From Sphingomonadales bacterium (GTDB taxonomy: Bacteria > Pseudomonadota > Alphaproteobacteria > Sphingomonadales > Sphingomonadaceae): 64,000 nucleotides of DNA. Every line of letters begins with the position of its first letter. Position 1 is the stretch's first letter. Shown in pieces: positions 14,655 through 18,160 of this stretch. The notes beneath the pieces were generated by a model that saw nothing but the letters and a program-made list of their open reading frames with translations, had not been told where the DNA came from and ran no database searches. The stretch spans positions 62,001 to 126,000 of the forward strand of contig JANYGX010000007.1 in assembly GCA_025362295.1 (NCBI GenBank), written 5' to 3'. Made by a program: the position numbers and the translations under genes.

Positions 14655-15416
14655 CTAAGATGATTGTTTGGTGGCTGCTGTGATCAAGGGAAAGTAAAGT
14701 GCATAAGGCATTGCGCGCAAAACTTTAAGCATCCACGTAAATCGGCGCGGGAACGTAATTTCGAAACCACCTTTGGTCATCCCGTTTACAATGCGGTCTG
14801 CCGCTGCCTCTGACGACATCAGAAATGGCATCTTGAAATCATTCTTGTCTGTCAGCGGTGTTTTTACAAAGCCCGGGTGAATAACCTGCACAACCACACC
14901 AAATGGATCGCATTCAAATTTCAGGGCTTCGGCAATATGGGTAAGTGCTGCTTTTGAGGCCCCATAGGCCATGGCGTTGGGGAGGCCGCGAAAACCAGCG
15001 ACTGATGAAATAATCGCAATATGGCCACTCTGACGGCGTTTCATTTTTGCAAGCACGGCTTCAATTGCGTTGAGGGCACCATAAACATTGGTTTCAAAAA
15101 CCGGCTTGATCACTGAAGTTGATGCCTGACTGTCTTTGCTATTGTTCCAGGTGGCTGCCGCAAAGAGCAAGGCATCAATGGGTCCGTATTGCAGATCAAT
15201 CGCATCGCTGGCTGCAAGTGTTGCATCCCTGTCGGACACATCAAATGCAAAGGCACGGATATTGCCGCCGCCAGCTTTTACAAGCGCATCAAGGGCATCT
15301 TGCGAACGCGCACTTGCAACCACTTTGATGCCAACTTTTGCAAAAGCCAGTGCAGTGTCACGTCCGATACCAGAAGATGCGCCGATTATCCAAACGTGTT
15401 TGAATGGTGGATTCAT
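14655..15416 (-). CDS. Short-chain dehydrogenase/reductase
   Basis: Rossmann-fold NAD(P)-dependent oxidoreductase with VWIIGASSGIGRDTA near residue 6, the catalytic IISSVAG serine and MAYGASKAAL (YxxxK) near 150. About 253 residues from ATG 15416; a longer ORF start at 15464 overlaps the upstream gene and is less likely. Start and upstream stop share one base (TAATG). As last gene of the rpoE-chrR-DUF6134-SDR set it may act in lipid or pigment metabolism under stress. Substrate unknown. Confidence 0.9.
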   Translation of the reverse strand: MNPPFKHVWIIGASSGIGRDTALAFAKVGIKVVASARSQDALDALVKAGGGNIRAFAFDVSDRDATLAASDAIDLQYGPIDALLFAAATWNNSKDSQASTSVIKPVFETNVYGALNAIEAVLAKMKRRQSGHIAIISSVAGFRGLPNAMAYGASKAALTHIAEALKFECDPFGVVVQVIHPGFVKTPLTDKNDFKMPFLMSSEAAADRIVNGMTKGGFEITFPRRFTWMLKVLRAMPYALYFPLITAATKQSS

Positions 15417-16174
15417 TATGGTCTTGATACGGATTGAAGCGCCGTGTGGCGGTTGGTCAGACAATTGCTGATAAGCGGGTTCGAGAGCAAATCTGGTGCA
15501 AGTGTCGCATCAGGCCTGGCAACAAGCCGGTACGTGATACGCGAACCATCAAACGGCACTTTGAAATTCATTCCGACCATGCACCCGGCAGCATCATAAA
15601 GCACGTTGGCATTAAAACGTTTGCTGCCAGTCACTTGATATTCCCTTGCCTGGATCGGCAGGGGCAAGAAACTTGGTGCGATGCTTGGGTTATCTGCCAC
15701 AAGCTTGGTGTTGATAACGGCACCTGTCTGTGTGTTCAGCAAGCGCGCCTGCTTTACCATGTCACGCAGCCAATAGGATGTTGTCATGATCGGACCCGCC
15801 ACTGTCGATGACACACCATCGGCATTGATGCTTGTGGTGTTTGCCTGAACTTTAGCTGACAGCGTGTTGACGTGACCATTGGTGGTTGTGCGACTGTCAA
15901 CGCTCACAAGTTTTTCGCTTTGCCAAATCTCGTGATTATTATGAACATATGTGAAAGGCACTATGAAAATTTTGCTTTTTAAAGTGATGAATACATCAAC
16001 CTGCAAGGCATCGCCTTTTTGTGTAAATCGGATCTTATGTTGGCCAATGACAGTGCGCCCTTTGAGTGCCTCAAAAACCAGCGAGCGTCCATCAATTAAA
16101 CTTGGATCAACAGCAGCGTGGCTCGCCGTGCTGAGAGGCGTGCAAAACAAAAGAAGGCACAATGCGCGCTTCAT
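15416..16174 (-). CDS. DUF6134-family exported protein
   Basis: A 252-residue protein with a signal peptide (MKRALCLLLFCTPL to SHAAVD). The mature part begins SLVFEALKGRTVIGQHKIRF, the phrase by which I recognise DUF6134, a periplasmic family of unknown biochemistry. The start at 16174 gives a proper signal peptide; the frame is open to 16264 inside chrR but that start is unlikely. It sits between chrR and the SDR gene. Genes of this kind recur near ECF11 sigma factors, suggesting a shared envelope or membrane-lipid stress role. Confidence 0.75.
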   Translation of the reverse strand: MKRALCLLLFCTPLSTASHAAVDPSLIDGRSLVFEALKGRTVIGQHKIRFTQKGDALQVDVFITLKSKIFIVPFTYVHNNHEIWQSEKLVSVDSRTTTNGHVNTLSAKVQANTTSINADGVSSTVAGPIMTTSYWLRDMVKQARLLNTQTGAVINTKLVADNPSIAPSFLPLPIQAREYQVTGSKRFNANVLYDAAGCMVGMNFKVPFDGSRITYRLVARPDATLAPDLLSNPLISNCLTNRHTALQSVSRP

Positions 16175-16185
16175 CCACACAACAT

Positions 16186-16860
16186 CTAAACCTTTAAAAA
16201 CGGGTTGATAAACCAGCCAACAAAACCGGTCAGCTGCACGGGCGCAGAAAGCACGGCCAGACAAAGGCAGCCGTTTACAGCGTCGGCCACAGGTTTATGT
16301 TTGGTATCTGAATTGGCCACTTCCATATCACCAACCGTAAAGTGGCCACACTCACTATCGTAAGCGCCTTTAATAACCACTGTCAGCTCCTCACCAGCAT
16401 GGCCGTGGTGCGGCATGGCCTTGCCTGGTGCTATGCGAAGCAAACTTGTACGATAGCCACTCTGGCTAGTTTTGATCACATACTCATCCACGCCGGATGT
16501 CAGATTATTCCATGGTAAGGCTTCAAAACTATCTCCAACATAAGCTCTGAGTGGCACCGGAACAGCGCTGGTGTGTTGTGTGCATGAGAAATCAGCATCA
16601 TTATCTGGAGGACTGTCAGCAAGATGTGCCAGAATAATTTTTAAGCTGTCATCAGAACCAGCTGTTGGTTCAAGGCTGTCAAGCAGCTCGCCGCCAATTT
16701 GATTGAGGCGATGATACGCCGATGCAGCTGCTGGGTTCAAATGAACAACAGTGGCAACGGCCAGCGCGATCGGCTCAAGCGCGGCACCTGTCGCAAAGTC
16801 CAGCAAGAGCTCGGAAGGCATTGTGTACGTGTTGAAAGATGTGGTGTTGTGGGATGTCAT
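16186..16860 (-). CDS. chrR: ChrR-like cupin anti-sigma factor
   Basis: In Rhodobacter, ChrR holds sigma E inactive until singlet oxygen appears. This 224-residue homologue has the C-terminal cupin with the metal set PHHGHAGEEL (His152, His154, Glu158) and His188, and the N-terminal helical domain (ALAVAT). The canonical N-terminal zinc ligands (one early His and H-x3-C-x2-C) are absent: the region reads LAVATVVHLNPAAAS, with no cysteine. It overlaps rpoE by 4 bp (ATGA), so the partnership is clear although zinc-dependent anti-sigma function may differ. Confidence 0.82.
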   Translation of the reverse strand: MTSHNTTSFNTYTMPSELLLDFATGAALEPIALAVATVVHLNPAAASAYHRLNQIGGELLDSLEPTAGSDDSLKIILAHLADSPPDNDADFSCTQHTSAVPVPLRAYVGDSFEALPWNNLTSGVDEYVIKTSQSGYRTSLLRIAPGKAMPHHGHAGEELTVVIKGAYDSECGHFTVGDMEVANSDTKHKPVADAVNGCLCLAVLSAPVQLTGFVGWFINPFLKV

Positions 16861-17429
16861 AACTGTGTTCCGATGGAAATTTTAAGGCGCATAAGGGCCA
16901 GTCGTATACGTGATTTGACCGTGCCGAGCGGCAGGCCGGTTTCAAGCGCTATATCACTGTGAGACTTTTCTTCAAAAAAAGCTTTCATAATCATGCTGCG
17001 CTGTTCAGGGGGCAACATAGCCAGCGATGTATTAACACTATGCGCTTCTGTGGCCTCGATCATGCACAAGTCTGCCGGCTTTTCCGGCTCCTGCAATATC
17101 TCGAAATCTTCCGGCTTCAGAGCCGGGCGATTTTCCTTGCGCAGCAGGTCGATCCTTTTGTTACGTAAAATTGTAAACAGCCAGGTGGAGACTGAGGCTT
17201 TGTCCACATCAAAACTTGCTGCTTTTCGCCACACTGATATCAATGTTTCCTGCACAAGCTCTTCTGCCGTTTCAGGCGTCAAGCGCTGTTTCAGGCACCA
17301 TGAACGCAGCCGTGGGGCATAATAGCCATAAAGCATCTCAAAAGCCTTGCGGTCGGCATTGGCGGCGATGGCTTTCACATGACTGGCCATGATATCGGAG
17401 GAGGTTAAATTTGGAACTTCAGAATGCAT
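16857..17429 (-). CDS. rpoE: ECF sigma factor, RpoE/ECF11-like
   Basis: Alternative sigma factor partnered with ChrR. Sigma2 covers FEMLYGYYAPRLRSW to VQETLISVWRKAASFD, with STWLFTILRNKRIDLLRK for -10 recognition. Sigma4 has LPPEQRSMIMKAFFEE and HSDIALETGLPLGTVKSRIRLAL. The ORF is open to 17615, but the first 60 or so residues look unlike any sigma factor. I prefer ATG 17429 (190 residues); ATG 17390 is also possible. It is expected to activate its own operon; I could not find a convincing ECF11 promoter. Confidence 0.85.
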   Translation of the reverse strand: MHSEVPNLTSSDIMASHVKAIAANADRKAFEMLYGYYAPRLRSWCLKQRLTPETAEELVQETLISVWRKAASFDVDKASVSTWLFTILRNKRIDLLRKENRPALKPEDFEILQEPEKPADLCMIEATEAHSVNTSLAMLPPEQRSMIMKAFFEEKSHSDIALETGLPLGTVKSRIRLALMRLKISIGTQL

Positions 17430-17686
17430 GGCTGTGTATGGCATAGATAAAGCTGCAAAAGGGATATGTTTTTTGGCAGAAAAACCCATGTCTGTGTCAA
17501 CTGACCTGACCCGAGTGGGTTCCGGTTTTTCAAAAGTCCGATGCCGGAGTTTATCTATCATTGTATACGGAAATCCATTGTTTTCAGCTCGTTGTGAATG
17601 TGTGGTGTGAAACATAGTGCGTCCGCTTATGTAATCTTTAAAATGTATACGGAGCTTTCCTCACTCTGGATGTTGCCGGGCTTGGT

Positions 17687-18160
17687 TCATTCCCGGTTGT
17701 CACGGTTGGTCTCAAGGGTTTGTTTGGTTGGTTTACCGTCCCGCCTGCCCAGCGAGTCATAATTGCCGCCTGGAATCGATGTGCGCGGGTCGGCATCCTC
17801 AAACATCTTTCGCGCAACCACTTCAGGGTCTTTAAAGCTTTTATCATGCCTGAGTTTTTCACCCCACATGTTTTCAGCTGTTTTGTCGCCAATTTCACCA
17901 AGGGTCATACCTTTGAACTGCCCACCAAACGGCGAATGGTCCCGCTCAAGTTTATAGGTGTCGGCCCGGTCCTGCTTGGCGCACACCACCACTTCATCAG
18001 GCGCGGTGGCTTTTGGGCAGGGTTTATAGTGGGGCACAGCGTCGACCACCTGAATTCTGCTTTGCGCTCTGGCCATGATATCTTCAGCGGTTTGGGCCGG
18101 GCAAAGGGGAATCGGCCACACCGATGCTATCGCCACCATGCACACGAGATGTTTCCACAC
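17687..18160 (-). CDS. Exported hypothetical protein
   Basis: A 157-residue protein starting at GTG with GAAGG upstream. The N-terminal hydrophobic stretch (HLVCMVAIASVW to PAQTAED) is a signal peptide. The mature part contains PHYKPCPKATAPDEVVVCAKQ, a two-cysteine motif seen in small secreted alphaproteobacterial proteins, probably a disulfide. The rest is hydrophilic and charged. Function unknown. It follows the MATE gene by 52 bp and may be in its transcript. Confidence 0.7.
   Translation of the reverse strand: MWKHLVCMVAIASVWPIPLCPAQTAEDIMARAQSRIQVVDAVPHYKPCPKATAPDEVVVCAKQDRADTYKLERDHSPFGGQFKGMTLGEIGDKTAENMWGEKLRHDKSFKDPEVVARKMFEDADPRTSIPGGNYDSLGRRDGKPTKQTLETNRDNRE

Follow-up and report, generated by a model that had tools for sequence, protein, structure and literature searches.

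The window analyzed here, a 64,000-nucleotide stretch of DNA from a Sphingomonadales bacterium, carries on its reverse strand a chrR-like anti-sigma gene (16186..16860) that runs from an ATG to a stop codon inside the window and encodes 224 residues arranged as an N-terminal anti-sigma domain (ASD, ~12-85), a linker, and a C-terminal cupin (~105-210). This protein belongs to the ChrR-type class I anti-sigma factors of the RpoE/ECF11 kind: it exceeds the curated cut-off of the ChrR family profile TIGR02451 (148.3 bits against 124.5, over profile positions 5-215 of 216) and that of Cupin_7 (55.3 bits against 27), its predicted helices (16-24, 29-41, 43-62, and 71-82, the last of low confidence) correspond to the three-helix bundle and fourth helix of class I ASDs, and an RpoE-type sigma gene lies next to it. 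A TIGR02451 search of the genome returned this gene (147.9 bits) as the sole match; the stricter NCBI ChrR equivalog NF051881, which requires 300 bits, gave the protein 153, and it is therefore not filed as an equivalog under that profile. The adjacent ECF sigma factor ORF (16857..17615, reverse strand) overlaps chrR by 4 bases, in agreement with the overlap noted in an earlier sequence-only reading of this DNA, and its best solved relative (2q1z_A, 131.7 bits) is Rhodobacter sphaeroides RpoE/SigE, the ChrR partner in 2q1z and 2z2s. The 2q1z_A match begins at residue 79 of the sigma ORF and an ATG at 17390 is a possible start, which makes the longer ORF uncertain; the ~75 codons that precede the conserved sigma domain (17390-17615, reverse strand), downstream of a promoter-like motif, belong either to a long N-terminal extension or to an untranslated leader. 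A 157-aa ORF (17687-18160, reverse strand) lies upstream of the sigma gene and matched nothing in Pfam or NCBIfam at the thresholds applied.

Behind chrR, the rpoE-chrR operon continues with a DUF6134 gene (15416..16174, reverse strand, from an ATG inside a longer ORF, 15416-16264), a possible member of the sigma operon, and then with a short-chain dehydrogenase (SDR) ORF (14655..15464, reverse strand). An SDR (RSP_1087) is also part of the published core regulon, which comprises in addition rpoE, chrR, a lipoprotein, RSP_1090, an amine oxidase, phrB, and cfaS (PMC5507510). On the same contig, ~54 kb off as measured between nearest gene ends, lies an operon of phr, amine oxidase, DUF1365, CFA synthase, MFS, and DUF3833 genes, which by gene content matches the core regulon as listed there; the window genome holds both operons of the sigma-E/ChrR core regulon. 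For this comparison, we take DUF1365 and DUF3833 to be the equivalents of RSP_1090 and the lipoprotein.

A promoter-like motif, CATCCAG-N13-CCGTATA (equivalent to ATCC-N16-CGTA), is located at 17646..17672 on the reverse strand and is one of two exact copies in the 2.59-Mb genome, one before rpoE and the other before phr; the motif was derived from comparing these two sites, and the genome search adds just the absence of a third exact copy. When up to 2 mismatches were permitted, 14 genome places were found, against 6 for the reversed control. The motif agrees with the consensus TGATCC-N16-CGTA from Pseudomonas syringae (PMC5507510) in its spacing, ATCC, and CGTA and differs in the first two bases, the -35-like element being CATCC rather than TGATCC; the window reads ACATCC at this point, two zinc-less relatives (L182 and L183) read TCATCC, and a third relative (L099) reads TGATCT. 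Two looser patterns did not single out the operons: TGATC-N17..20-TAWG occurred at 155 genome places against 13 for a reversed control that holds the rare word CTAG and was thus given no weight, and TGATC-N17-CGTA with up to 2 mismatches occurred at 153 window places against 126 expected, a count reached by 0 of 100 shuffles.

The metal ligands of R. sphaeroides ChrR are H6, H31, C35, and C38 in the N-terminal domain and H141, H143, E147, and H177 in the cupin (PMC6852236), with an N-terminal spacing of H-x24-H-x3-C-x2-C (PMC6432622). All four N-terminal positions are substituted in the window protein, namely by T13 (codon 16822..16824), V38 (16747..16749), N42 (16735..16737), and A45 (16726..16728), all on the reverse strand. 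A local alignment to R. sphaeroides ChrR (2z2s_B) starts at window residue 16 and continues without gaps through the helical part to ~residue 80, placing V38, N42, and A45 opposite H31, C35, and C38, respectively; the H6 position precedes this alignment, and T13 is assigned to it by a MAFFT alignment and fits the published spacing. The statement of the sequence-only reading that the usual ZAS set (an early His and H-x3-C-x2-C) is absent is thereby borne out, and the protein, in which the motif with an upstream His or Cys is lacking, is not filed as a ZAS protein on these alignments. Its numbering of the cupin metal ligands was likewise exact: alignment places them at H152, H154, E158, and H188 of the window protein (span 16297..16407, reverse strand), all four are kept, and the cysteines C198 and C200, which correspond to R. 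sphaeroides 187 and 189, occur as well. The same cupin HHEH set occurs in 152 of 152 aligned ChrR proteins of all ligand classes, a figure partly favored by the profile search used for collection.

To collect these 152 proteins, TIGR02451 was searched in 396 order genomes, of which 42 exceeded the cut-off, and in 289 class genomes, of which 100 did so. A contig scan with the single window protein as query found no relative. Near full-length places were fetched down to ~110 bits and lower-scoring and partial places were left out, and strongly degenerate ChrR forms are therefore under-sampled. The search yielded 179 full-length frames, besides 6 short ones that are without exception halves of a split gene in genome G007 and were set aside; removal of rows with identical last 150 residues left 159, and 7 further rows, comprising bicupin-like frames in L021, L023, L024, L026, L028, and L029 and a fragment in L096, were dropped. 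Both cysteines and both histidines (HHCC) are present in 86 of the proteins, neither cysteine in 58, and one cysteine in 8. The class sample (n=106) divides into 79 HHCC, 22 no-Cys, and 5 one-Cys proteins, and the order sample (n=45, the window itself being extra) into 7, 35, and 3, respectively, making the no-Cys form the majority in the order (36/46 including the window). Ligand loss is thus no single-protein oddity, as it might have seemed when the window was read in isolation. The window protein is an extreme case, being one of nine among the 58 in which none of the four positions holds H, C, D, or E. As an aside on distribution, only the window's own genome and one other (G404) of the 42 order genomes over the cut-off are from the window's family, where occurrence is consequently patchy.

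The literature partly anticipates this picture. A zinc motif is carried by 72% of soluble class I anti-sigma domains (PMC7406223), a proportion close to the 75% of HHCC proteins in the class sample, and zinc and non-zinc class I types are intermixed in the published tree (PMC7406223); absence of the motif from class I domains is, on this source, already known in aggregate, and the passages of it drawn on here do not name the ChrR group, AS11, as mixed. The sequence-only reading had named, as evidence that would refute it, many ECF11 partners that lack the ligands and function normally. The first half of this applies (58 of 152 lack both cysteines); for the second, the open-licence literature contained no paper on zinc-less ChrR and no published function test of such proteins that we could find. 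Within the no-Cys proteins, 25 of 58 (25/152 rows overall; e.g., L005, L042, L043, L048, and L050) have His at positions 31 and 35 (H-x3-H) and Leu or Met at 38, and this H35-type, to judge by its residues, might bind another metal or none. Second, divergent ChrR copies that keep H31 and C35 and have L or I at 38 were observed in three genomes (L092, L096, and L100 in G079, G085, and G131), all of which also carry an H35-type ChrR elsewhere.

On a quick tree built without the ligand columns, the window protein falls within nine no-Cys proteins of its own order (SH-aLRT 90, not a starred branch), its nearest relatives by path being L182, L099, and L183. The HHCC/no-Cys label requires 15 changes on this tree, or 12 when eight long-branch rows are removed, and starred branches force at least 3; a single no-Cys clade was not rejected by the AU test (p 0.078, log-likelihood 72 lower). 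Several independent losses of zinc are thus likely, rather than proven, on the basis of this tree. A second genome scan recovered further zinc-less relatives from Rhodothalassium salexigens (L187), alpha proteobacterium Q-1 (L186), Pseudokordiimonas caeni (L197), an uncultured Sphingomonadales MAG (L185), and a Kordiimonadaceae MAG (L194), all of which, like the window protein (35-45% identity), have neither cysteine; L185 keeps both histidines and L186 and L187 keep the H31 equivalent, whereas the window protein has neither. HHCC was kept in Azospirillum and Roseomonas records (L189-L193, L195, L196, and L198) and in an alphaproteobacterial MAG (L188), and a cupin-only match from Pseudomonadales (L199) was left out. 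In the window's own family, the chrR homologue of the G007 genome (L181, G007:C1:1343800-1348000) is split over two frames, with an ASD that is also without cysteines.

As in the window, DUF6134 stands behind chrR in L185, L186, and L187, and an SDR is likewise present in L187 and an SDR-like gene in L185. Both genes are commoner behind chrR in no-Cys rows, and neither serves as a marker of zinc loss: DUF6134 was found in 7/33 no-Cys, non-H35 rows, 2/24 H35-type, 4/84 HHCC, and 0/8 one-Cys rows, and SDR in 8/33, 6/24, 5/84, and 1/8, respectively, which is too scattered, the counts being confined to rows with at least 900 bases downstream and made with profiles trained on the window and L185-L187 themselves. 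The DUF6134 count misses L183, where the stop-to-stop frame starts inside chrR, the gene being present in L187 from the same genome. Photosynthesis was considered as a reason for zinc loss and set aside, as the window's genome has no Photo_RC match (0/1).

The replacements at the former cysteine positions are not haphazard. Position 35 is N, S, or D in 26 of the 33 no-Cys, non-H35 proteins, whereas these three make up 15% in the region around it, and position 38 is A, S, or G in 23 of the 33, all of these counts describing related sequences and not independent events. A proline follows position 35 in 56/86 HHCC, 22/25 H35-type, and 17/33 other no-Cys proteins. Asn, Ser, and Asp are classical helix N-cap residues, and in two AlphaFold2 models of the window protein, helix 29-41 and the helix that starts at 43 are separated by residue 42 alone, which is non-helical. 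Given N/S/D at 35, A/S/G at 38, and the non-helical residue 42, we infer that a helix cap and a small buried residue take over from zinc in linking helices 2 and 3. The first model, built from a 15-sequence input (9 of them HHCC), has a mean pLDDT of 79.2 and matches ChrR 2q1z with Z 22.9 (169 aligned, 3.1 A), and the second, a stricter control built from 6 zinc-less sequences alone, has a mean pLDDT of 75.5 and Z 21.3 (171 aligned, 4.5 A), the matches spanning model residues 9-205. Zinc-less sequences by themselves are thus predicted to give a ChrR-like fold, in models of the ChrR chain without sigma and by a method that is blind to metals and inclined to reproduce the fold of the family. A Foldseek superposition on 2q1z gave an rmsd of 8.2 A (TM 0.67/0.82), and the placement of the two domains therefore differs from that structure; model blocks from residue 61 to 100 are of low confidence (mean pLDDT 48-64).

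Coupling to the sigma gene is retained irrespective of the ligands. With sigma genes located by a sigma profile and distances taken from the H6-equivalent codon, 50/58 no-Cys, 78/86 HHCC, and 5/8 one-Cys rows have one immediately upstream, no more than 134 bases away, a sixth one-Cys row having its sigma gene at 1.1 kb, and the median distance from the sigma stop to that codon is 15 bases in no-Cys and 14.5 in HHCC rows; an earlier, narrower rule, replaced by this count, had given 47/58, 67/86, and 5/8. No-Cys and zinc-type chrR genes directly follow a sigma gene with similar frequency. The promoter motif TGATC-N17-CGTA, sought in the fetched loci up to 450 bases before the sigma-domain match, precedes 25/50 no-Cys, 58/77 HHCC, and 2/5 one-Cys loci (0.05, 0.2, and 0 expected from 20 base shuffles each), and a wider set, in which position 1, 3, 4, or 5 of TGATC was left free or ATCC-N16-CGTA was accepted (the latter added after the window had been seen), precedes 33, 62, and 2 loci (1.0, 1.4, and 0.05 expected). 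The rest of the ASD consensus, such as Y-A-x-G of helix 1 and GG of helix 3, is common to no-Cys and HHCC proteins. When proteins of equal cupin identity are compared, the no-Cys, non-H35 set shows a lower ASD identity than HHCC proteins do (0.336 vs 0.379 in the 0.3-0.4 bin and 0.358 vs 0.421 in the 0.4-0.5 bin, in which the window's nine-member clade has 0.340), which suggests that the ASD of this set is under weaker or altered constraint and counts somewhat against full constraint.

Taken on its sequence and modeled structure, the window gene most likely encodes a working zinc-independent ChrR that still sequesters its own sigma factor, with a probability of roughly three in four. Between the two options that the sequence-only reading had offered, inhibition without zinc is favored because the sigma coupling, the regulon, the promoter-like motif, the ASD consensus, and the predicted fold have all been kept, and the proposal that the protein is no longer an inhibitor is weakened. 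The three-helix bundle, which is pinned by zinc in Rhodobacter ChrR, would depend here on hydrophobic packing, N42 capping helix 3 at the place where Cys35 binds zinc and the small A45 occupying that of Cys38, and the C-terminal cupin, with its own metal, would be the likely sensing module, triggering release or turnover under singlet oxygen or organic peroxide. Against a zinc-free inhibitor stand that ASD zinc binding is required for inhibition in R. sphaeroides (PMC6852236), that ASD identity is reduced, that the strict promoter motif is rarer before no-Cys sigma genes than before HHCC ones, and that ligand loss in the window protein is extreme. The first two of these would equally be expected had the N-terminal domain decayed, leaving sigma constitutive or otherwise regulated and the cupin kept for another role, and the split chrR of the same-family G007 genome points the same way; this break may, however, be a sequencing error, since that single-contig genome has 86% completeness and 7% contamination, and the 58 no-Cys proteins are full-length, retain the helical consensus, in most cases directly follow a sigma gene, and show the non-random substitutions at position 35 described above, all of which makes decay unlikely.

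Less probable still is that a metal remains bound in the ASD by displaced ligands, or by ligands shared with linker or cupin residues. Candidates are present in the form of H4, H40, H50, H79, C93, and H96 of the ASD and linker, and the H35-type group, with its histidines at 31 and 35, might hold a different site; yet H40 and H50 are absent from seven aligned relatives of the clade, and no cysteine occurs before residue 93, such that this arrangement is improbable. Hardly any credence can be given to a wrong start, a frameshift, or misalignment as the source of the apparent ligand loss. The extra residues around VVH do invite a gapped alignment in which H40 would take the place of H31, but the gapless alignment to 2z2s_B puts H40 two residues later and neither register yields a cysteine; a start that restores a histidine is likewise ruled out by an open frame of 231 codons, just seven beyond the ORF, and independent relatives are also without cysteines. 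The alternative start or alignment that the sequence-only reading had named as a means of recovering the ligands has therefore not materialized.

The zinc-independent inhibitor favored here has counterparts among known systems. It resembles R. sphaeroides ChrR-SigE/RpoE (2q1z, 2z2s) in its two domains, the sigma gene directly upstream, the cupin ligands, the predicted fold, the core regulon genes, and the promoter spacing, and differs in being without all four N-terminal zinc ligands. RseA has the ASD fold without zinc (PMC6852236), and E. coli RseA and M. tuberculosis RskA share with the window protein a class I ASD that has no zinc motif (PMC7406223; for RseA also PMC6852236). They differ from it in their sigma partners, and RseA in its membrane-spanning region (PMC6852236), and no ChrR cupin is described for either in the parts of these two sources drawn on here (PMC7406223, PMC6852236).

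The role of the N-terminal ChrR zinc as a singlet-oxygen sensor is under debate: singlet oxygen reacts rapidly with a peptide that models the zinc site, but the cupin domain is indispensable in vivo (PMC6432622). More tentatively, at a little below even odds, a large part of ChrR proteins may have swapped the N-terminal zinc site for a metal-free packing capped by N, S, or D, several times and with the cupin metal site kept. If so, such proteins would be natural separation-of-function variants in which the cupin by itself senses stress, including singlet oxygen, and the reactive zinc finger that has been put forward as a sensor would be dispensable. ChrR proteins that are zinc-less and have an intact cupin, sigma gene, promoter-like motif, and regulon offer a natural test of the need for N-terminal zinc in singlet-oxygen sensing: should they respond to singlet oxygen, this zinc would be structural and replaceable, and should they not, it would be part of the sensor. 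One of the zinc-less ChrR proteins belongs to Rhodothalassium salexigens DSM 2132, a named strain whose genome record is public. What makes these proteins interesting is that nature has separated the disputed N-terminal zinc from a cupin metal site that was kept in every row examined.
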